Origin: Candidatus Saccharimonadota bacterium
GTDB taxonomy: Bacteria; Patescibacteriota; Saccharimonadia; Saccharimonadales; UBA4665
Length of the DNA stretch: 16,601 nt
Direction: 5' to 3'
Assembly: GCA_027314795.1 (NCBI GenBank)
Contig: DAHVAE010000005.1
Coordinates: 1-16,601, forward strand
Numbering within the stretch: position 1 is the first letter of the stretch; each line of letters opens with the position of its first letter. This document shows, in pieces, positions 1,391 to 9,054 of the stretch. A program made the position numbers and the translations under genes. The notes below the pieces were generated by a model that saw nothing but the letters and a program-made list of their open reading frames with translations, was not told the origin of the DNA and made no database searches.

Positions 1391-2633
1391 GAAAGCAAAT
1401 ATATTCCAGAAAAAAACTATAGTTATTGATAGAAAGCTAGCCAGAACAGTAGCTATATTTATTATCCCGGTTGTTTTATACCTAACCTTAATCTCTATTG
1501 GATTAGTAGGCGAGGGCAGTCAACAATTTTCGCAACTTGCAGAGTCCTTTGTCCACGGCCATACCTACTTCTTGCATCCTATTGGCGGTGTCGGTGAGGA
1601 CCCAGTCTTTTACCATGGCAAGGTTTATTGGGACGAAGGGCCATTCCCATCTATTGTTTTAATGCCATTTGTCGCTGTTTTTAATATTTGGCACAGCTTC
1701 TTTTATCAGGGGTACGTTAAGTGGCTACTAGTTTTACTGATAAGCTTATTTGTTTATAAGCTGGCTAGAAAGCTAAACTTTACAAAAAGTGACAGTTTAA
1801 TTTGGATGTTTGGCTTTACTTTGGGTTCAGTATTTATGGGTATTGCTAGCGTGTCTAGTGGTTGGTTGTTTGCCCAAATAATTGGAGCGCTCCTGACTTT
1901 TTGGGGCCTATATGAATATATGACTAAAAGACGCTGGTGGTTAATTGGTCTGCTGACTGCTTGCTTACTTCTAACCAGAATCCCGGCAGCTGCTATTGTA
2001 GTATTTTATCTACTGGTTATATTTCTGGCTAAGACCGACTGGAAGACTAAGCGCAAACAGTTATTTCAACTGTTAATCTTCTCGGTTATTGCAATAGCGT
2101 TACTTGGTGCCTATAACTGGCAAAGATTTGGTAGCCCACTAGATAATGGCAACCAGTACCAACTATTGTCTCTAGCTTCTTCAGAGGCTAGGTCAATGGG
2201 TGTAGTATCTCCAAGCCATATTCCGACAAACCTTTATACAATACTGCTCCGTGCTCCAACACCAGTGTTAATTAACAATGTCTCTTGGAGTTTAAAAGCC
2301 CCTTGGGTTGAAAATAATCCGTTAGGGGTTAGTATATTTATCACCTCACCATGGTTGCTTTATCTATTTACTAAACGTTGGTCAAAATATCCTAGAGATG
2401 CTAAATATTTAGTAATTGCTTCGCTTGTTATATTGGTCTTACTACTATGTTATTTTGGTGACGGTGCTGATCAGATGGGTTATAGATATGCTATGGACTT
2501 TATGCCAGGACTGTTTTTAGCACTCATGATGATTTACCGAAAGAATACCGGTGCTATTAGCACTGGGATGAAAATCTTACTACTTGGATCAGGGGTGACT
2601 AACTTTTATTTGTTGGTCAGTTATATCCGTTAA
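1389..2633 (+). CDS. Polytopic GT-C type glycosyltransferase (PMT/ArnT-like)
   Basis: This 414-residue protein is an integral membrane protein with about ten hydrophobic segments, the first near residues 20-40. The large outward loop after it contains HGKVYWDEGPFPSIVLMPF (about 76-94), very like the HG(K/R)xYxxxxPG-type loop of dolichyl/undecaprenyl-phosphate-mannose protein mannosyltransferases and other GT-C enzymes. The late segment GYRYAMDFMPGLFLALM is also typical. Such enzymes move a sugar from a lipid-phosphate carrier onto a protein or glycan on the outer face of the membrane. Donor and acceptor cannot be told from sequence. The start is a TTG with AGGTGG (1379-1384) four bases upstream; no better start precedes the first helix. 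The gene converges on the pilin array and overlaps its last gene by four bases at a shared TTAA. Confidence 0.75.
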   Translation: MKANIFQKKTIVIDRKLARTVAIFIIPVVLYLTLISIGLVGEGSQQFSQLAESFVHGHTYFLHPIGGVGEDPVFYHGKVYWDEGPFPSIVLMPFVAVFNIWHSFFYQGYVKWLLVLLISLFVYKLARKLNFTKSDSLIWMFGFTLGSVFMGIASVSSGWLFAQIIGALLTFWGLYEYMTKRRWWLIGLLTACLLLTRIPAAAIVVFYLLVIFLAKTDWKTKRKQLFQLLIFSVIAIALLGAYNWQRFGSPLDNGNQYQLLSLASSEARSMGVVSPSHIPTNLYTILLRAPTPVLINNVSWSLKAPWVENNPLGVSIFITSPWLLYLFTKRWSKYPRDAKYLVIASLVILVLLLCYFGDGADQMGYRYAMDFMPGLFLALMMIYRKNTGAISTGMKILLLGSGVTNFYLLVSYIR

Positions 2634-3070
2634 GCTCCGGATTGAGCGCCAATGTTGCTGGCCGTACCTAGGACATAGTGAACAATAAGCTGTGCTAGCA
2701 CAACAATTACTAAACCAATGATGGCATATATCAAGGTGCTTTTGGCACTTGAGACGCTCCCGCTTTCGCCTCCAGAAGTAATATACCTAAAACCAGCGTA
2801 GATGATCATGATGACAGAGATAATACCGACTACTACTGAAAAGATGTCAACGACTGTTTTCGCTAAACCTTTTATTCCTGAGGTTATGCTGCCAGAAGTA
2901 CCACATGAATATGATCCACTGGATCCACCGCCAGAAGTAGCATTAATACCACTACCAACATCGCTGCCAATATTGCCGCAAGCTGCTGCTCCGACAGGTA
3001 TAAATACCGGCATAGATAGTGTTAAAAAAGCAAGTAATATAATGATTTTGTTCTTCAAAACGTTTAACAT
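2630..3070 (-). CDS. TrbC/VirB2-like pilin-type membrane protein (array member 6, last transcribed)
   Basis: The 146-residue protein has a signal-like helix (about 8-25, ending VGAAAC), a Gly/Ser-rich exported segment with two cysteines (C31 and C56, the only ones), and a two-helix hairpin at about 73-94 and 112-134. The hairpin carries the array signature GFRYITSGG, a VxxAKxTLIYA turn and a GLVIVVLAQ helix. This is the architecture of VirB2/TrbC pilin subunits of type IV secretion systems. An unusually strong GAGGGGG lies just before the ATG. A 74-bp gap separates it from the preceding array gene, so it may have its own promoter. It shares long identical nucleotide stretches with its neighbour at 3145-3618, implying recent duplication. 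Its stop overlaps that of the convergent glycosyltransferase by four bases. Confidence 0.82.
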   Translation of the reverse strand: MLNVLKNKIIILLAFLTLSMPVFIPVGAAACGNIGSDVGSGINATSGGGSSGSYSCGTSGSITSGIKGLAKTVVDIFSVVVGIISVIMIIYAGFRYITSGGESGSVSSAKSTLIYAIIGLVIVVLAQLIVHYVLGTASNIGAQSGA

Positions 3071-3095
3071 ATTCCCCCTCTAATTAGTTTTCATA

Positions 3096-3124
3096 AGTCT
3101 ATAAACATAATAATACATAATCAA
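3096..3124 (-). promoter_or_regulatory. Possible internal promoter for the last pilin gene
   Basis: On the minus strand TTGATT (3124-3119) and TAGACT (3101-3096) are 17 bases apart. Each matches the sigma-70 consensus at four of six positions. It falls in the only sizeable gap of the array, directly before a gene with the strongest ribosome binding site of the set, so separate or boosted expression of that pilin is plausible. Confidence 0.3.
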
Positions 3125-3144
3125 TTTGAATTTTAACAGTCTTT

Positions 3145-3618
3145 TTAACTGTCGTCTCTTAGTTGGCTGCTTGTAATGCTACCGACAGCATTACTGGCGG
3201 AATTAAGCACACTATGAACAAGGATCTGCGCAAGTATGGCAATAGCCAGTCCAACCAGAGCATATATCAAGGTGTTTTTAGCACTAGCCACGGCATTGCT
3301 ATCTCCGGAAGAAATTATGTACTTAAAGCCAGCAATTATAACCATGATGACAGAGATACTCCCAACAAAGAAAGACATTATATTCACTACTTCTCTAGCA
3401 ATATTTGTAAAAGTGTTTGTAGTTGCATTTTTAGAACAACTTATCGCAGTTACGCTATTTAAACCCCCACAAACTTCTTGTTTAAATGTCGAGGCGGTTG
3501 AAAGACTCTTGATTGGAGCTAAAGTCGGCGAAGTTGTCGGGCTATCTGCTGCGACTGTAGCTAGACTTAACATACTAAAAAGTGTGGTTATCGAAATAAA
3601 TAGTTTAATGTATTTCAT
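3145..3618 (-). CDS. TrbC/VirB2-like pilin-type membrane protein (array member 5)
   Basis: This 157-residue protein has an N-terminal signal-like helix (about 5-23, followed by VAADSP), a Ser/Thr/Pro-rich exported stretch, two cysteines only (C50 and C61), then a membrane hairpin with helices at about 77-97 and 116-138. The segment GFKYIISSGD and the VASAKNTLIYALVGLA run closely match the neighbour at 2630-3070, and the two genes share blocks of identical bases. The ribosome binding site is weak (GGA about eleven bases before the ATG), and the start is 21 bases after the stop of the preceding array gene, so coupling is likely. The C-terminal tail (AVGSITSSQLRDDS) is longer than in the other members. 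The role as a pilin-like subunit of a T4SS-type apparatus is inferred from fold and context. Confidence 0.8.
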   Translation of the reverse strand: MKYIKLFISITTLFSMLSLATVAADSPTTSPTLAPIKSLSTASTFKQEVCGGLNSVTAISCSKNATTNTFTNIAREVVNIMSFFVGSISVIMVIIAGFKYIISSGDSNAVASAKNTLIYALVGLAIAILAQILVHSVLNSASNAVGSITSSQLRDDS

Positions 3619-3639
3619 CTTTAAAATTCCAATTTAATT

Positions 3640-4032
3640 TTATCCTATATGACCTAATACGAATACCACTATTGTTTCAGCTAAAACTGCAACCGCTACT
3701 CCTGCCAATGCATAGAGTAGGGTATTTCTAGCGTTAGTTATAGATTGAGCATCGCCATTGGCAATAATAAACCGAAAGCCAGCAATTAGTATGACAATTA
3801 CAGAAGCTATACCAATTATAAAAGAAATGACTTCAATAGCAGATTTAAGAGTTTTTAAAACAGGATTGCTGCCAGTTTTAGTTTGGGCATTAACTTCATT
3901 ACAAACACTAGTACTAGCAGCCTGGCCACCACATGTTTCTGAGTTGCTAAATATATTAACTGCATAAACTGGCGTAGATAACACCAGTAAGCTGAGGGCC
4001 ATAGCTGTGAGTATAATTAATATCTTTCTCAT
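3640..4032 (-). CDS. TrbC/VirB2-like pilin-type membrane protein (array member 4)
   Basis: The 130-residue protein starts with a clear signal peptide (MRKILIILTAMALSLLVLST then PVYA, a good cleavage site after residue 24). A short exported loop follows with two cysteines (C34 and C44, TCGGQ and SVC). The hairpin helices lie at about 66-86 and 104-126, with GFRFIIANGDAQS and ARNTLLYALAGVAVAVLAE between and within them. After signal removal the mature chain would be about 106 residues. The ATG overlaps the preceding gene's TGA (ATGA, 4029-4032), and AGGAAG sits three bases upstream, so translation is probably coupled. Confidence 0.8.
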   Translation of the reverse strand: MRKILIILTAMALSLLVLSTPVYAVNIFSNSETCGGQAASTSVCNEVNAQTKTGSNPVLKTLKSAIEVISFIIGIASVIVILIAGFRFIIANGDAQSITNARNTLLYALAGVAVAVLAETIVVFVLGHIG

Positions 4033-4349
4033 AATCTTCCTAGTATAAAGGCGACTATAGCCTCCGCGCTTATTGAAACGGCAAGCCCAATAACTGCATA
4101 GATAATTGTTTCTCTAGCTTTTTGGACGTTTTGAGGATTACCACCAGAAGTGATAAACATTAAAGCACCAATTATAATCATCAGCAGCGATATTACCCCT
4201 GCAATACCGAAAAATATCCCGAGTGCTGTTTTTAGCTCAGTTGAGCCAGCGTTGACTGCAGGCAGCCCAGTACTACAATCACTGCCGCCCTGTCCAGGAC
4301 AGGTGACACTTGCACCTGATGCAACTAATTTCAAAAGAATTGTTGTCAT
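4029..4349 (-). CDS. TrbC/VirB2-like pilin-type membrane protein (array member 3)
   Basis: I place the start at the ATG at 4349, giving 106 residues. There GGGAG lies nine bases upstream, and the ATG shares its A with the stop of the preceding gene (TAATG). A longer frame reaching 4400 would add an out-of-family leader with four extra cysteines and overlap the neighbour by 52 bases, so it is rejected. The protein has a short hydrophobic N-terminus with little room for a classical signal peptide, two cysteines (C17 and C25, TCPGQGGSDC), and a hairpin with helices at about 42-64 and 81-104. The signature FITSGGNPQNVQKARETIIYA is shared with the other members. It ends FILGRL, overlapping the next ATG by four bases. 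Confidence 0.8.
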   Translation of the reverse strand: MTTILLKLVASGASVTCPGQGGSDCSTGLPAVNAGSTELKTALGIFFGIAGVISLLMIIIGALMFITSGGNPQNVQKARETIIYAVIGLAVSISAEAIVAFILGRL

Positions 4350-4720
4350 TAGTGAAATCTCCCGGCAACAAAGCTCACTAGGGCAGCGGAAAGAACACAT
4401 ATTGCTAACCCTATAGCTGCTCCAAGCATTGTGCGCATAGCACGACTGGTCTGTTCTGGGTTACCTCGACTGGTAGTGTATTGGATACCTGCATAGATAA
4501 TAATGCCAACCGCAGCGATACCAGCAACTCTAAGCAAAATCTCAATCACTGCCGCAACAATTAACCAAATATCTGAAAGACTAGTTAGTTGAGGACTACA
4601 GGTACCAGATGTGTTGGTACCGTGCAAGTAATGGTACCAAGTTGGAAACCCAAAAATACTCCCACCTGAAGGTGTACAAGCAAAGTGTTGTGTAACTAAT
4701 AATTTATGTATTAAGTTCAT
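4349..4720 (-). CDS. TrbC/VirB2-like pilin-type membrane protein (array member 2)
   Basis: This 123-residue protein lacks an obvious signal peptide: the N-terminus MNLIHKLLVTQHFACTPSGG is only weakly hydrophobic. It has an aromatic stretch (FPTWYHYLHG), paired cysteines C15 and C41, and the hairpin helices at about 52-76 and 94-116. The loop YTTSRGNPEQTSRAMRTML aligns with the array signature but is more basic. A third cysteine lies inside the last helix (AICVLSA), unlike in the other members. Its ATG overlaps the stop of the preceding gene (ATGA, 4717-4720), and no independent promoter is visible. It may be a divergent or minor subunit. Function is inferred from fold and position. Confidence 0.77.
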   Translation of the reverse strand: MNLIHKLLVTQHFACTPSGGSIFGFPTWYHYLHGTNTSGTCSPQLTSLSDIWLIVAAVIEILLRVAGIAAVGIIIYAGIQYTTSRGNPEQTSRAMRTMLGAAIGLAICVLSAALVSFVAGRFH

Positions 4721-5163
4721 GGATGAAGGAACCCTCCGGGTACTACATAGTTTAATATGGCATAAGCAAATATAAAGACAAGTAATGCAATGGTCGAGCT
4801 GATTAACCTTTTAACTGCCGCCTGGGTACCATTAGGGTCACCTCTAGCGACAATATACTGAATACCGCCAACGATAACTGAGGCGATAATAACTAAACCA
4901 ACACCAGCTGATAAAAATCTAATAACTGCAAACAAAAGGTCTGTTATGGGGTTGCCTTTCTGAGAACAGCCAAAGTTTATACTTGTCGGTACCGCTGAAT
5001 AACCACTGCCACCGCCACATTGGGCTGTTAATTTAATTGATTGGTGACTTTCTTGGTTTAAAATTGGCATTGAAAATAACAGGAAAAATACTAAAATTAA
5101 TGGCCATAGGTTAAGAAAATTACCTAATTTAATTTTTGATTTTAAACTCTTCATTTTGGTCAA
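4717..5163 (-). CDS. TrbC/VirB2-like pilin-type membrane protein (array member 1, first transcribed)
   Basis: The 148-residue reading has a basic N-terminus (MTKMKSLKSKIKLG), a signal-anchor helix (about 19-35), an exported loop with two cysteines (C49 QCGGG and C66 NFGC), then a hairpin with helices at about 75-98 and 115-140. The loop GIQYIVARGDPNGT follows the array pattern; the last helix is the most divergent. Two starts compete: TTG at 5163, with AAGG seven bases upstream, or ATG at 5154. If transcription starts from the extended -10 at 5183-5175, that AAGG would not be in the message and the ATG, or near-leaderless initiation, becomes likelier. It leads the minus-strand pilin operon. 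Confidence 0.8.
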   Translation of the reverse strand: MTKMKSLKSKIKLGNFLNLWPLILVFFLLFSMPILNQESHQSIKLTAQCGGGSGYSAVPTSINFGCSQKGNPITDLLFAVIRFLSAGVGLVIIASVIVGGIQYIVARGDPNGTQAAVKRLISSTIALLVFIFAYAILNYVVPGGFLHP

Positions 5164-5211: not shown

Positions 5212-6186
5212 ATGGCATCATACAAACTAATTCAAGATATTGAAGCTGAAGACAAGCTTTTAGGACCACTAAGTTTCAGGCAGTTTGTCTATGCTGTTGT
5301 GGCCGCTGGTCTTTTATACTTTAGCTACCTTTTATATACCCACCATGGAGAACTTCTAGATATTATTACGATACCAATTGCCTTGTTTGCTGGCTTTTTA
5401 GCTTACCCTTTTGGTAAGGATCAACCGACTGAAGTTTGGGCTTTAGCTAAGTTAAGATTCCTATTTAAACCAAGAAGGCGTATTTGGGCTCAGAGTGGTA
5501 TCAAAGAATTAGTAACAATTAATGTTCCTAAAAGGGTCGAGATTCAATTAACTAATGGTCTTACCCAAACAGAAGTTAAGTCGCGTCTACAAGCTCTTGC
5601 AAATACTATAGATAGTCGGGGCTGGGCAACAAAAAACGTTACCAGCGTCTACCAAAACCCAATAACAAACACTGATTCGGATCGCTTAATTAGCGCCCAG
5701 ACTTTAGCCCAAAGTGTACCAGATGATGTTGTCGACTCAGTCGATCCCTATGACGAACAAACTAGCCCAATAGCTCAACAAGTTGACCAACTACTCAGTT
5801 CCAGTTCTTCTCAACACCGCCAGCAGCTCATAGAACACCTTAATGAAGTTAAAAATGACTTACATCAATCGACTGCTGCTCCAGTGGTGGAAGGACCCCA
5901 AGTCCAACCCCAAGTAAATCTGCCTCCAGAAAATATTATAGAGTCTGAACTAAAAAGGGCTTATGTTAATAGCCATTCATCTTTAAATAATATGCACGCT
6001 ATCCGTACACAAGTCGCACCGATTTCACAACCAACTCAACAACCGATAAGTCAAACTACCCCAGATCCTGTTATAATGAACTTATCTCAAAGAGACGACT
6101 TAAACGTTAACGTTATTTCAAATGAAGCTAACCGTGCGTTACCTAAAAACGGTGGCAATAATGAAGTATTAATATCTTTGCGTTAA
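5212..6186 (+). CDS. PrgI-family membrane protein of a T4SS-like apparatus
   Basis: The first 100 residues match the PrgI family found beside VirB4 in Gram-positive conjugation clusters and in CPR genomes. Two helices lie at about 24-42 and 50-67, flanked by the family-like start MASYKLIQDIEAEDKLLGPL and the segment FGKDQPTEVWALAKLRFLFKPRRR. PrgI proteins may act as a small inner-membrane component that docks VirB4, comparable to VirB3, but their exact role is not settled. The remaining 220 residues form a Gln/Ser/Asn-rich, low-complexity cytoplasmic extension that makes the protein far longer than the usual roughly 100-150. No Shine-Dalgarno is visible at normal spacing, and the extended -10 ends eight bases before the ATG, so leaderless translation is likely. 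It heads the operon with the TraC-like and VirB4 genes. Confidence 0.82.
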   Translation: MASYKLIQDIEAEDKLLGPLSFRQFVYAVVAAGLLYFSYLLYTHHGELLDIITIPIALFAGFLAYPFGKDQPTEVWALAKLRFLFKPRRRIWAQSGIKELVTINVPKRVEIQLTNGLTQTEVKSRLQALANTIDSRGWATKNVTSVYQNPITNTDSDRLISAQTLAQSVPDDVVDSVDPYDEQTSPIAQQVDQLLSSSSSQHRQQLIEHLNEVKNDLHQSTAAPVVEGPQVQPQVNLPPENIIESELKRAYVNSHSSLNNMHAIRTQVAPISQPTQQPISQTTPDPVIMNLSQRDDLNVNVISNEANRALPKNGGNNEVLISLR

Positions 6187-6202: not shown

Positions 6203-7090
6203 ATGGATCCAACAAATAATTTAAACCAAACGGGCACCACTTATCCTTCACTAGATAATCCGCAAACTACCCCAGCCCCGACTGCGCCGCCACCGCCACA
6301 GTATTCTAGTGGTGGTGTTGTTAGCCCGTCGGCTGCACCCCAACCAACAGTAAAAACTAAGAGCAACCCAAACAGTACCCAAAATACCCTCCAGATTGCT
6401 GAAATTAGAGATGGGGTTGTCATTATGAACGATGGTTCGTATAGATCAGTTATTATGGTTAAAAGCATTAACTTCGATTTAATGAGCACCCAGGAACAAG
6501 AAGCTGTTGAGTACTCTTATCAAGGTTTCTTAAATTCGTTGTACTACCCAGTTCAGATCTTTGTTAGGACCCAGAAAGTTGATCTTCAACAATATATTGA
6601 TCGATTAGATAAGATTAGAACTGAACACGACAATATGCTGCTTGCACTGCTCATGGAAGACTATATAGCTTACATTGAAGACCTAAGCCAACAGACAAAC
6701 ATCATGGATAAGAAGTTTTATATTGTGATCCCATATTTTCCTGTTGAAGATGTTCAAAAAGCTTTAACTGAAAGTAAAAACTTCTTAACTGGTTTAGTTA
6801 ATTTATTTAACTCGAAGGAGCAGCATGTCGTTATCAACGAAGCCGACCTAGAACGAGCAAAGACTGAGCTCAGAAATAGAGTCCAGGCCCTTCTTGGCGG
6901 ACTTGCCCAATGTAATATTCAAGGCTTACCACTAGATACCCAAGAGCTTATTGAGCTTTACTACGATACTTACAACCCAGATACAGCCACTAGGCAACAA
7001 TTAAAGAACTTCGATGATTTATCTGCTGACGTAATCACAAAAGGTCAAGGAACTGCACCTCAAGGTCATTTGCAGCGGGAGTTAGATTAA
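6203..7090 (+). CDS. TraC-like protein, probably a detached VirB4 N-terminal domain
   Basis: The first 60 residues are rich in Pro, Ser and Gln (PAPTAPPPPQYSS), likely disordered. The domain from about 62 to 235 begins LQIAEIRDGVVIMNDGSYRS and continues with VEYSYQGFLNSLYYPVQIFV and DKKFYIVIPYFP. This is the pattern of the TraC-like N-terminal domain that usually precedes the ATPase in VirB4/TraC/TraE proteins. No Walker motifs are present. It probably forms a cytoplasmic complex with the ATPase encoded immediately downstream. AGGTGGG lies just before the ATG. Its TAA shares a base with the next ATG (TAATG at 7088-7092), so the two proteins are likely made in coupled amounts. The family assignment rests on recognition by eye. 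Confidence 0.7.
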   Translation: MDPTNNLNQTGTTYPSLDNPQTTPAPTAPPPPQYSSGGVVSPSAAPQPTVKTKSNPNSTQNTLQIAEIRDGVVIMNDGSYRSVIMVKSINFDLMSTQEQEAVEYSYQGFLNSLYYPVQIFVRTQKVDLQQYIDRLDKIRTEHDNMLLALLMEDYIAYIEDLSQQTNIMDKKFYIVIPYFPVEDVQKALTESKNFLTGLVNLFNSKEQHVVINEADLERAKTELRNRVQALLGGLAQCNIQGLPLDTQELIELYYDTYNPDTATRQQLKNFDDLSADVITKGQGTAPQGHLQRELD

Positions 7091-9054
7091 TGGCTTTTGG
7101 CAAATCTAAACCAAAAATAGACTCTATTGCTATTGCTCAACAGCACCAACAACATGAGCAGCAAGAAGTCCAGGCAGCTTTTCAAAAGGGCATAACAGCC
7201 TTAAGGGACTTCATAGCTCCAAGTTCACTAGAATATAGCTCAAGTTATTTCCAGCTTGGTACGCGTTTTGCTAGGACTTACTACGTCTATGGTTACCCAA
7301 GAAACCTCTACACCGGTTGGCTTTCTGGGATGGTCAATTTAGACGAAGTTATGGACCTTAGCTTATATGTCTACCCAGTAGAAAGCCGGGTGGTGCTAGA
7401 CAATTTACGTAAAAAAGTAACAAGACTAGAAGCTGGTATCCAAATCGATGCTGAAAAAGGCAGAGTAAGAGACCCATCTAAACAAGCTGCTATTACAGAT
7501 GCTGAAGAAATGCGAGACAAATTACAGGTTGGTGAAGAGCGCTTCTTCCGTTTTGGGTTATATTTCACAATTTACGCTAGAGACATGGAAGAGCTTGAGT
7601 TTGTTAGCCATAAAGTTGAGTCAATGCTCGGTCAGCAGCTTGTTTATTCAAAGCCAGCAAGCTCACAGCAAGAGCAGGCCTTTAACAGCACCATCCCGCA
7701 AATGGTAGATCAGCTCCAAATTAGACGGAATATGAGCACTGGTGCTTTAAGTACCAGCTTCCCATTTACTTCAGCTGATCTAAGCCAAGATAACGGCATC
7801 TTATATGGCATTAATATGCATAACTCAGGACTGGTTATTTTTGATCGTTTTTCACTTGAAAACGGTAATTCAGTCGTCTTTGCTAAGTCAGGTGCGGGTA
7901 AATCATTCTTGGTTAAACTTGAAGCTTTAAGAAGTATGATGTTCGGCACTGAGATATTTATTGTTGATCCTGAAAACGAATACCAAAGGATGTGCGATGC
8001 TGCCGGTGGCGCCTACGTTCGTTTAAGCCTTGCTTCAGCAACTAGGATTAACCCTTTTGATTTACCGGAAGTTGTTGATAATGAAGAAGCAGACAATGCT
8101 TTAAGAAGCAATCTAATAACCCTTCATGGTCTACTAAGATTAATGATGGGTGGTGCTCAAGCCCAACTTATGGGTAATGCAGCTACATTGGCGCCAGTCC
8201 TGACGCCAAGCGAGGAGGCTGATCTTGATGCGGCTTTAATTGAGACCTATGCTCGAGCTGGTATTACTAACGATCCATTAACACACAGGTCACCACCACC
8301 AACCATTTCTGACCTTTATGATACTTTGTTACATATGGGTGGCAATGGTCCATCGCTGGCCCAAAGGTTGAGGAAATATACGACTGGAACTTTCTCGGGC
8401 ATTTTCTCTCAGCAGTCTAATATAAACATAAACAACCCTTTGGCTGTCTTTAATATTCGTGATCTTGAAGACGAATTAAGGCCTGTAGCTATGTATATAG
8501 TCTTAAATTACATTTGGAATAAAACAAAAGTTGATCAAAAAAGAAGAATCTTAATTGTTGATGAAGCTTGGCAACTCATGAAATATGAAGACTCAGCTAG
8601 TTTCCTATTTAGTCTTTCTAAAAGGGCCAGGAAATATAACTTGGGTATAACTACTGTTACCCAAGATGTTGAAGACTTCATGGGATCACGTATGGGCAGG
8701 GCAGTAGTTGCCAACGCCTCAATGCAGTTTCTACTAAAACAATCTACTTCTGCAGTTGATGTTTTAGCTGACGTCTTTAAATTAACCTCAGAGGAACGTA
8801 AAAGATTAAGTCAGTTCCCGGTCGGCCAAGGATTATTCTTTGCTGGCCAAAACCACGTTCACATACAGGTCGTAGCTAGCCCTACGGAGACCAGCTTAAT
8901 TACTACGAACCCAAGTGATAATCCGCTGCCTGCGCCAGCCCAACAACTATATGATAGAGATGTTCCAGGAGCTGAACAGCAAACGATAGAATTAAATAAC
9001 ACTCCAGTTGGTCCATTACCAACTACAATTCCACCACCTCCGCCGTCAACTTAA
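7090..9054 (+). CDS. virB4: VirB4/TraC-type conjugation ATPase
   Basis: The 654-residue protein is the energy-providing ATPase of a T4SS-like system, thought to drive pilin extraction from the membrane and assembly. The P-loop is at residues 265-272 (AKSGAGKS, with Ala in place of the first Gly), and the Walker B motif ILIVDEAWQLM has its D491-E492. Downstream, a conserved TTVTQDVEDFMGS region and a QFLLKQS segment match VirB4 proteins. The N-terminal 250 residues contain a VirB4-like CagE-type region (YVYGYPRNLYTGWL). The tail is proline-rich (TTIPPPPPST). Length is shorter than full VirB4 (about 750-850) because the first domain seems to be encoded by the upstream gene. Its stop overlaps the convergent recF stop by four bases. 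Confidence 0.92.
   Translation: MAFGKSKPKIDSIAIAQQHQQHEQQEVQAAFQKGITALRDFIAPSSLEYSSSYFQLGTRFARTYYVYGYPRNLYTGWLSGMVNLDEVMDLSLYVYPVESRVVLDNLRKKVTRLEAGIQIDAEKGRVRDPSKQAAITDAEEMRDKLQVGEERFFRFGLYFTIYARDMEELEFVSHKVESMLGQQLVYSKPASSQQEQAFNSTIPQMVDQLQIRRNMSTGALSTSFPFTSADLSQDNGILYGINMHNSGLVIFDRFSLENGNSVVFAKSGAGKSFLVKLEALRSMMFGTEIFIVDPENEYQRMCDAAGGAYVRLSLASATRINPFDLPEVVDNEEADNALRSNLITLHGLLRLMMGGAQAQLMGNAATLAPVLTPSEEADLDAALIETYARAGITNDPLTHRSPPPTISDLYDTLLHMGGNGPSLAQRLRKYTTGTFSGIFSQQSNININNPLAVFNIRDLEDELRPVAMYIVLNYIWNKTKVDQKRRILIVDEAWQLMKYEDSASFLFSLSKRARKYNLGITTVTQDVEDFMGSRMGRAVVANASMQFLLKQSTSAVDVLADVFKLTSEERKRLSQFPVGQGLFFAGQNHVHIQVVASPTETSLITTNPSDNPLPAPAQQLYDRDVPGAEQQTIELNNTPVGPLPTTIPPPPPST

Follow-up and report, generated by a model that had tools for sequence, protein, structure and literature searches.

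Tandem arrays of VirB2-like pilin genes are already known from the Patescibacteria, which are host-dependent ultrasmall bacteria. One survey reports 441 arrays of 2-11 such pilins in 383 Patescibacteria assemblies, with a within-array identity averaging 25%, and, drawing an analogy to Bartonella and Anaplasma, suggests that they serve antigenic variation or adaptation to hosts (PMC12102498). In the described arrays, including the type IV secretion system (T4SS) cluster SEML1_0006-0019 of Southlakia epibionticum ML1 and that of N. lyticus TM7x, several divergent PF18895 pilins lie near PrgI/VirB4 and dnaA, and Southlakia has six (PMC12102498, PMC10633639, PMC12857230). Six such pilins have been described as conserved in structure, divergent in sequence and a possible conduit (PMC12857230). 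In S. epibionticum, the one species tested, the secretion system is reported to be essential, including its pilin series (PMC10633639). In TM7x, the levels of two T4SS components are raised in the early phase of host contact (PMC10768705), and virB2 was found in 23 of 65 activated-sludge bins (PMC12592800). Thiol-disulfide oxidoreductases and VKOR have been described as enriched in the CPR, and that study connects them with type IV pili (PMC6744442). Here we analyzed a similar array of six consecutive minus-strand pilin genes at positions 2630-5163 of the window, by which we mean the whole 16,601-nucleotide stretch studied, contig DAHVAE010000005.1 (C57) of a 0.68-Mb saccharibacterial genome. 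We named the pilins P1, which adjoins the PrgI gene, then P2-P5, and P6 at the far end. An initial sequence-only reading had noted the six genes and their paired cysteines. This observation holds and is stronger than first stated: the positions are ordered and orthologous between genomes, and the cysteine pairs are coupled. In the open-licence literature we found nothing linking cysteine pairs to these pilins, nor any account of positional orthology of the arrays. The accessible text of PMC12102498, which reads the arrays as a sign of versatility or antigenic variation, lacks the word 'disulfide' and uses 'cysteine' once, concerning VirB1; neither word occurs in that of PMC12857230.

Other known systems share parts of this arrangement. 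Like the window, Anaplasma phagocytophilum carries tandem paralogues, here of VirB2, and their arrangement is largely conserved between strains. Their number varies from 8 to 15 between strains of this one species, and two hypervariable regions have been described in them, one ahead of an N-terminal cysteine (PMC3556328), whereas the window array belongs to one lineage-wide set with paired cysteines. The archaeal CedA1/TedC pili are likewise built of small subunits with two helices, whose genes accompany VirB4- and VirB6-like ones, and CedA1 of A. pernix is secreted unprocessed. Unlike the window, they have a single pilin type per pilus, and the available text of that paper does not contain the word 'cysteine' (PMC9905601). 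The conjugative pilins of PF04956 share the two-helix hairpin and basic turn, and four of the six window pilins have a signal peptide; the window differs from them in having several position-specific genes and a cysteine-paired N-terminal domain. The statement that ordinary VirB2/TrbC systems have one pilin gene, made when the array was first noted, is incomplete, since multi-pilin arrays have been published (PMC12102498).

All six open reading frames (ORFs) are present on the minus strand, each with exactly two cysteines ahead of the hairpin, as first reported. P1 (4717..5163, 148 aa from TTG, with a possible alternative ATG start at 5154, 9 bases inside) has a signal segment, C49/C66, the hairpin and a C-terminal PGG motif. 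P2 (4349..4720, 123 aa) overlaps P1 by 4 bases and has C15/C41 with a WYxYL motif between them, no clear signal segment, and C108 in helix 2, the third, in-helix cysteine that had been noticed in one member. P3 (4029..4349, 106 aa) has the shortest N-region of the six and an LP motif; its pair C17/C25 presupposes the start at 4349, which lies inside the longest ORF (4029-4400), and that longer form, read from 4400, runs into the upstream gene and contains four more cysteines. P4 (3640..4032, 130 aa; C34/C44) overlaps P3 by 4 bases, P5 (3145..3618, 157 aa) carries C50/C61, and P6 (2630..3070, 146 aa; C31/C56) follows a 74-base spacer; all three have a signal segment. An N-terminal hydrophobic or signal segment had been proposed for all six, and by eye it is clear in P1, P4, P5 and P6, not in P2 and P3. 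The motif A(R/K)xTxxYA, described as usual, occurs in four of the six, and the turn, given as G(F/I/A)x7G(G/D/N), is in fact G(F/I/A)x6G(G/D/N/E) in all six.

Regarding their identity, all six match PF18895 (T4SS_pilin) over the hairpin, the cysteine-bearing N-region lying outside the model. Five exceed the curated cut-off of 26.6 bits in hmmscan, and P1 scores 25.0 bits there and 26.8 in a six-frame search. Three of the six match PF04956 (TrbC/VirB2), all below its cut-off (best 27.3 against 27.9), and the other three do not match it. The six are PF18895 pilins, and the PF04956 threshold is reached by none. With the parts of VirB4 at 6203-9054, the window contains a Patescibacteria-type array, that is, at least two tandem PF18895 pilins near virB4. 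All six also give a below-cut-off match to NF045849, a mycoplasma Mbov_0395 pilin-like conjugation family; these matches bear on the statement that the T4SS classes of Gram-positive bacteria are without major pilin genes (PMC12102498).

PF18895 was matched in 85 of the 93 genomes of the window's GTDB family. The window and 60 of the 84 other matching genomes, with one region each among the best matches listed, gave 61 family loci from 32 genera with 339 pilin ORFs, and the 43 of these with exactly six hits (24 genera, 258 pilins) were used to compare positions. Wider loci came from outside the family (54 of the 123 genomes with a match there), plus G308 from another order, which was left out of the order counts and was the only one left out of the N-region cysteine counts. 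A further 80 loci, which overlap the genome set, were used to build alignments A2 and A3 and were not counted independently.

Pilins resembled their counterparts in other genera more than their neighbors. At full length, 252 of the 258 pilins had their best other-genus match at the corresponding position, the six misses all being P5 matched to P6. Our operational sign of antigenic variation was that own paralogues be closer than other-genus orthologues; in 249 of 258 cases the other-genus match outscored the best own-genome paralogue. With hairpins only, the numbers were 230 and 234, and it was P4 and P5 that missed. A tree of 144 hairpins, drawn from 24 genera, had one branch setting apart P1 (support 100), another P2 (98) and a third P3 (only 1), with P4-P6 intermixed. 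The position label changed 13 times on this tree, against a minimum of 5 and a mean of 93.3 for shuffled labels. Private motifs gave the same picture within the family: a PGG-like tail in 45 of 51 P1 (also in 1/52 P5 and 4/67 P6), WYxYL in 40 of 51 P2 and at no other position, and LP in 51 of 55 P3 versus 2/175 in P4-P6. C15 and W28 are invariant in an alignment of 44 P2 sequences. Beyond the family, the P2 motif was found in 22/44 and the P3 motif in 23/36, and the first three genes were called P1-P2-P3 in 41 of 54 loci from 16 families of the order (34 of 35 when the divergent family f2 is set aside). Outside the class, the position models mostly stop separating.

Next to this orthology stands the cysteine pattern. 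Cysteines make up 3.7% of N-region versus 0.05% of hairpin residues; in the non-pilin window proteins counted they make up 12 of 4160 residues (0.29%). Naively, six N-regions with exactly two each would arise with a probability of 1.4e-12, which is no true P value as the six are paralogues; for this reason, comparison across genomes is the better test. Odd N-region counts occurred in only 34 of 339 family pilins and 46 of 330 from other families, where a Poisson model that ignores relatedness expects near half. When the 24 N-terminal residues were skipped and counting ran on to the protein end, odd numbers rose to 52/339 and 56/330; part of this rise reflects P2 and P3, whose first cysteine is often among the skipped residues. 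As a rule, the non-pilin proteins of these loci showed no general preference for even numbers: odd counts were seen in 24/43 PrgI, 28/41 N-terminal VirB4 parts, 56/59 Hsp20 proteins, 18/32 C-terminal VirB4 parts (some cut by contig ends) and 7/12 relatives of the protein encoded at 1389-2633. The protein encoded at 90-692 was the exception (11/45).

The coupling of the two cysteines was clearest at P3. In 81 of the 116 loci (the other 35, with cut contigs, fusions or belonging to divergent f2, lacked a called P1, P2, P3, P4 or P6), even counts were found for 77 P1, 77 P2, 80 P3, 79 P4 and 81 P6, the first 24 residues being omitted for P1, P4 and P6. P3 had no cysteine in 46 loci, two in 33, one in 1 and four in 1, so that 79 of 81 had none or two, and it switched between these states at least 10 times on a tree built without P3. 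Joint gain and loss of pairs is what a disulfide predicts. At the other positions the pair is nearly constant within the family. Both P4 columns are filled in 56/56; those of P2 in 50/50 and 47/48 of the residues present, of P5 in 52/52 and 43/52, and of P1 in 42/43 and 48/50, with a third column in 33/34. The second P6 column is filled in 66/67, the first being spread over neighboring columns. At least two N-region cysteines occurred in all six pilins of 20 of the 43 six-gene arrays and in all but P3 of 21; the remaining two arrays lacked them at P2, and at P1 and P3, respectively. Five of the 43 matched the window in having exactly two in every pilin. Conservation in orthologous arrays, on which the initial proposal depended, was found at P1, P2, P4, P5 and P6 in nearly all family loci and, for 31 of 34 loci from 15 other families, in all pilins except the third, P3 being paired only in some lineages. 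In the exported part, cysteine numbers were mostly even and conserved, with exceptions in f2 and at P3, and this supports the original idea that these are exported pilins carrying cysteine pairs. The set contains one other locus of the window's genus; compared with it, N-region identity is 31-53% for P2-P6, yet all five retain two cysteines in front of their hairpins, at shifted sites in the case of P2. Three loci (L195, L196 and L274) have a called P1 with a long cysteine-rich N-region (714 aa with 14 cysteines, 263 with 12 and 412 with 18), as if P1 bore an extra exported domain, taking the ORF starts as called.

Cysteine pairing belongs to this lineage. Outside the class, 105 of 193 pilins from 40 loci had no cysteine, 45 had two and 36 an odd number, counted from the longest ORF starts, and in none of these 40 loci did every pilin have at least two. 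A second T4SS locus, present in eight family loci including contig C56 of the window's genome, offers an internal control. Its pilin has at most one cysteine, and the adjacent, longer protein starts with a pilin hairpin; ahead of the hairpin neither carries a pair, which indicates that the pilin fold does not need one. On C56 (L003/L291) this locus comprises a small PF18895 pilin, a second PrgI and a 474-aa fusion of a hairpin with a VirB6/TrbL-like part (TrbL 23.3 bits, below the 25.9 cut-off), an arrangement that recalls the CedA/CedA1 homology described in PMC9905601.

Regarding export, a Kyte-Doolittle scan of 12 residues (>1.8) detected a hydrophobic segment in 48/51 P1, 56/56 P4, 51/52 P5 and 65/67 P6 of the family, and in only 18/51 P2 and 12/55 P3. 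The pilin turn is positive and the N-region slightly negative, which fits an outside N-terminus. In a single-chain model of P6 (mean pLDDT 73.9, pTM 0.46), the predicted elements are a signal helix, a short helix lying between the two cysteines, and a long hairpin. Genes for a thiol-oxidizing pathway are common in these genomes: VKOR was found in 84 and Thioredoxin_4 in 80 of the 93 family genomes, and the window's genome has both, on contigs C67 and C31. Among 55 further genomes, 32 had VKOR and 49 Thioredoxin_4. DsbB was searched for in 14 VKOR-less genomes (2 of 9 in the family, 12 of 23 among the further ones) and found in two. These two, G122 and G425 of family f3, suggest an apparent swap of thiol oxidase within the order; a third f3 genome, G408, matched neither VKOR nor DsbB. 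The pathway is compatible with the pairs and could act on these pilins.

The genes are also closely packed. Gaps of at most 5 bases (overlap or near-touch) separate P1-P2 in 35, P2-P3 in 39 and P3-P4 in all 43 six-gene arrays, and the P5-P6 spacing is at least 40 bases in 37. P1 and P2 form one gene in six loci of one genus, and P2 and P3 in two loci from two genera, with both hairpins and the P2 cysteine pair intact. Regarding co-occurrence with the VirB4 of the window, we searched 14 genomes with few or no PF18895 matches. Five of the seven without a match (G025, G388, G399, G423 and G483) also lacked this VirB4. Of the other seven, G085, G072, G060 and G430 had it, G491 had a fragment, and G045 and G059 had only a second VirB4 type, 36% identical. 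Some of the absences of arrays may be due to cut contigs.

We hypothesize that the six genes encode position-specific VirB2-like subunits forming a fixed heteromeric set with intramolecular disulfides for one T4SS, and we consider this probably correct. In our model, the six subunits would serve a single chromosomal T4SS of Saccharimonadales. Each would be a two-helix membrane hairpin with an N-terminal ectodomain outside, entering the membrane by a signal peptide in P1, P4, P5 and P6 and probably by N-tail insertion in P2 and P3. The two ectodomain cysteines would close one loop through an intramolecular disulfide, made by the cell's own thiol-oxidizing pathway, mostly VKOR with a DsbA/MdbA-like thioredoxin and DsbB in a few. 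The subunits would then co-assemble in fixed roles on the PrgI/VirB4 platform, forming either a mixed pilus or a short sleeve anchored in the membrane, with a probable role in host contact. The 'disulfide-stapled' pilins first proposed are strongly suggested by the sequence comparisons, and the heteropolymer suggested with them is favored, short of proof. We also considered, as a rather unlikely extension, that gene order mirrors architecture, with about one copy of each disulfide-stapled hairpin and neighbors in the order P1-P2-P3-P4-P5-P6 forming a short hetero-oligomeric ring or sleeve over a VirB4/VirB6 base. If true, the monoderm T4SS would here have a conduit whose composition is fixed, not a long homopolymeric pilus.

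Several observations weigh against the fixed, disulfide-bearing set. The P3 pair is absent from 22 of the 43 six-gene arrays, and P5 and P6 of f2 often have no cysteine. Order P1-P2-P3 was found in only 7 of 19 f2 loci, which were chosen by listed PF18895 hits, so that some may be other arrays. By hairpin, P5 separates poorly from P6 (25 of 43 P5 matched the same position). The pilin number is not fixed either: of the 41 P1-P2-P3 loci outside the family, 18 contain seven pilins, 17 six, 4 five, and one each eight and nine, which makes six typical of the window's family and no rule. The loop in the P6 model is of low confidence (block-mean pLDDT 51-58). DsbB was not found in 12 of the 14 VKOR-less genomes searched, and G417 (98% complete, 4 contigs) and G397 (95%) keep the pairs with no VKOR, Thioredoxin_4 or DsbB match. 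The fusions show compatibility, not contact, since only gene neighbors can join, and G006 and G014, two of the seven genomes without a PF18895 match, have VirB4. Finally, strains of Anaplasma are also reported to keep their VirB2 order (PMC3556328), so a conserved order would not by itself rule out variation; what counts here is orthology across genera.

That orthology bears directly on the swappable subunit set offered as an alternative in the initial reading, namely paralogues expressed singly or recombined for different hosts. Such a set has been proposed for the VirB2 arrays of Bartonella and Anaplasma and suggested for Patescibacteria (PMC12102498), and it would account for loops that differ strongly among positions and for N-regions that diverge faster than hairpins at the five positions compared within the genus. 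We nevertheless regard it as quite unlikely. Positional identity is kept across 24 genera, and order in most other families; the private motifs and neighbor-gene fusions also argue against interchangeable pilins, the tight P1-P4 overlaps suggest joint translation, and extra copies in the P1-P2-P3 loci outside the family were called P5- or P6-type only. A version of our hypothesis in which one major pilin, P6 or P5/P6, builds the filament and P1-P4 are minor (tip, base or assembly) subunits, comparable to the minor pilins known from other pili, is possible, if somewhat doubtful. P6 has the highest between-genus hairpin identity (median 73%), more than one P6-type call in 25 of 41 outside-family loci (although a P5 can be called P6), and the spacer that sets it off in the window and in most six-gene arrays; across the 43 arrays, however, Shine-Dalgarno strength is not highest for P6.

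The cysteines themselves allow other roles. Even numbers by themselves are no proof of disulfides, and some genomes lack the oxidases searched for, as would suit pairs that bind metal or heme or act as redox switches. Judged on spacing, this is very unlikely: the last two N-region cysteines are 4 to 40 residues apart, depending on position, unlike a fixed metal or heme motif, and most family genomes have VKOR and Thioredoxin_4. Lipidation of the first cysteine as a lipoprotein anchor is hardly credible. C31 of the window P6 does follow AAA near the expected cleavage site, but a lipobox-like string in the first 45 residues was found in only 1/51 P1, 1/51 P2, 0/55 P3, 1/56 P4, 1/52 P5 and 1/67 P6, and the second cysteine would be left unexplained.

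Positional orthology makes the question of why there are so many pilins testable, and it speaks against the published idea of antigenic variation. The cysteine pairs, in turn, predict that host contact depends on redox conditions.

Divergent from P1 and on the plus strand lies the gene for a PrgI/VirB3-like protein (5212..6186; PF12666 over cut-off), followed on that strand by a split VirB4. Its N-terminal part (6203..7090, TrsD/VirB4-like) is a recurring neighbor with NCBIfam matches below cut-off, and its ATPase part (7090..9054) matches NF045971, CD1110-type VirB4, over cut-off and also PF19044, with relatives 76-88% identical over the best segment. The two genes share one base (7090), and the two-gene form recurs in the family loci that reach that far. 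By Pfam, the wider setting contains dnaA, dnaN, a RecF-type gene, rnpA, yidC and an Hsp20 gene (867-1349, PF00011). A relative of the latter was found in 58 of the 61 family loci, mostly adjoining the P6 end of the array.

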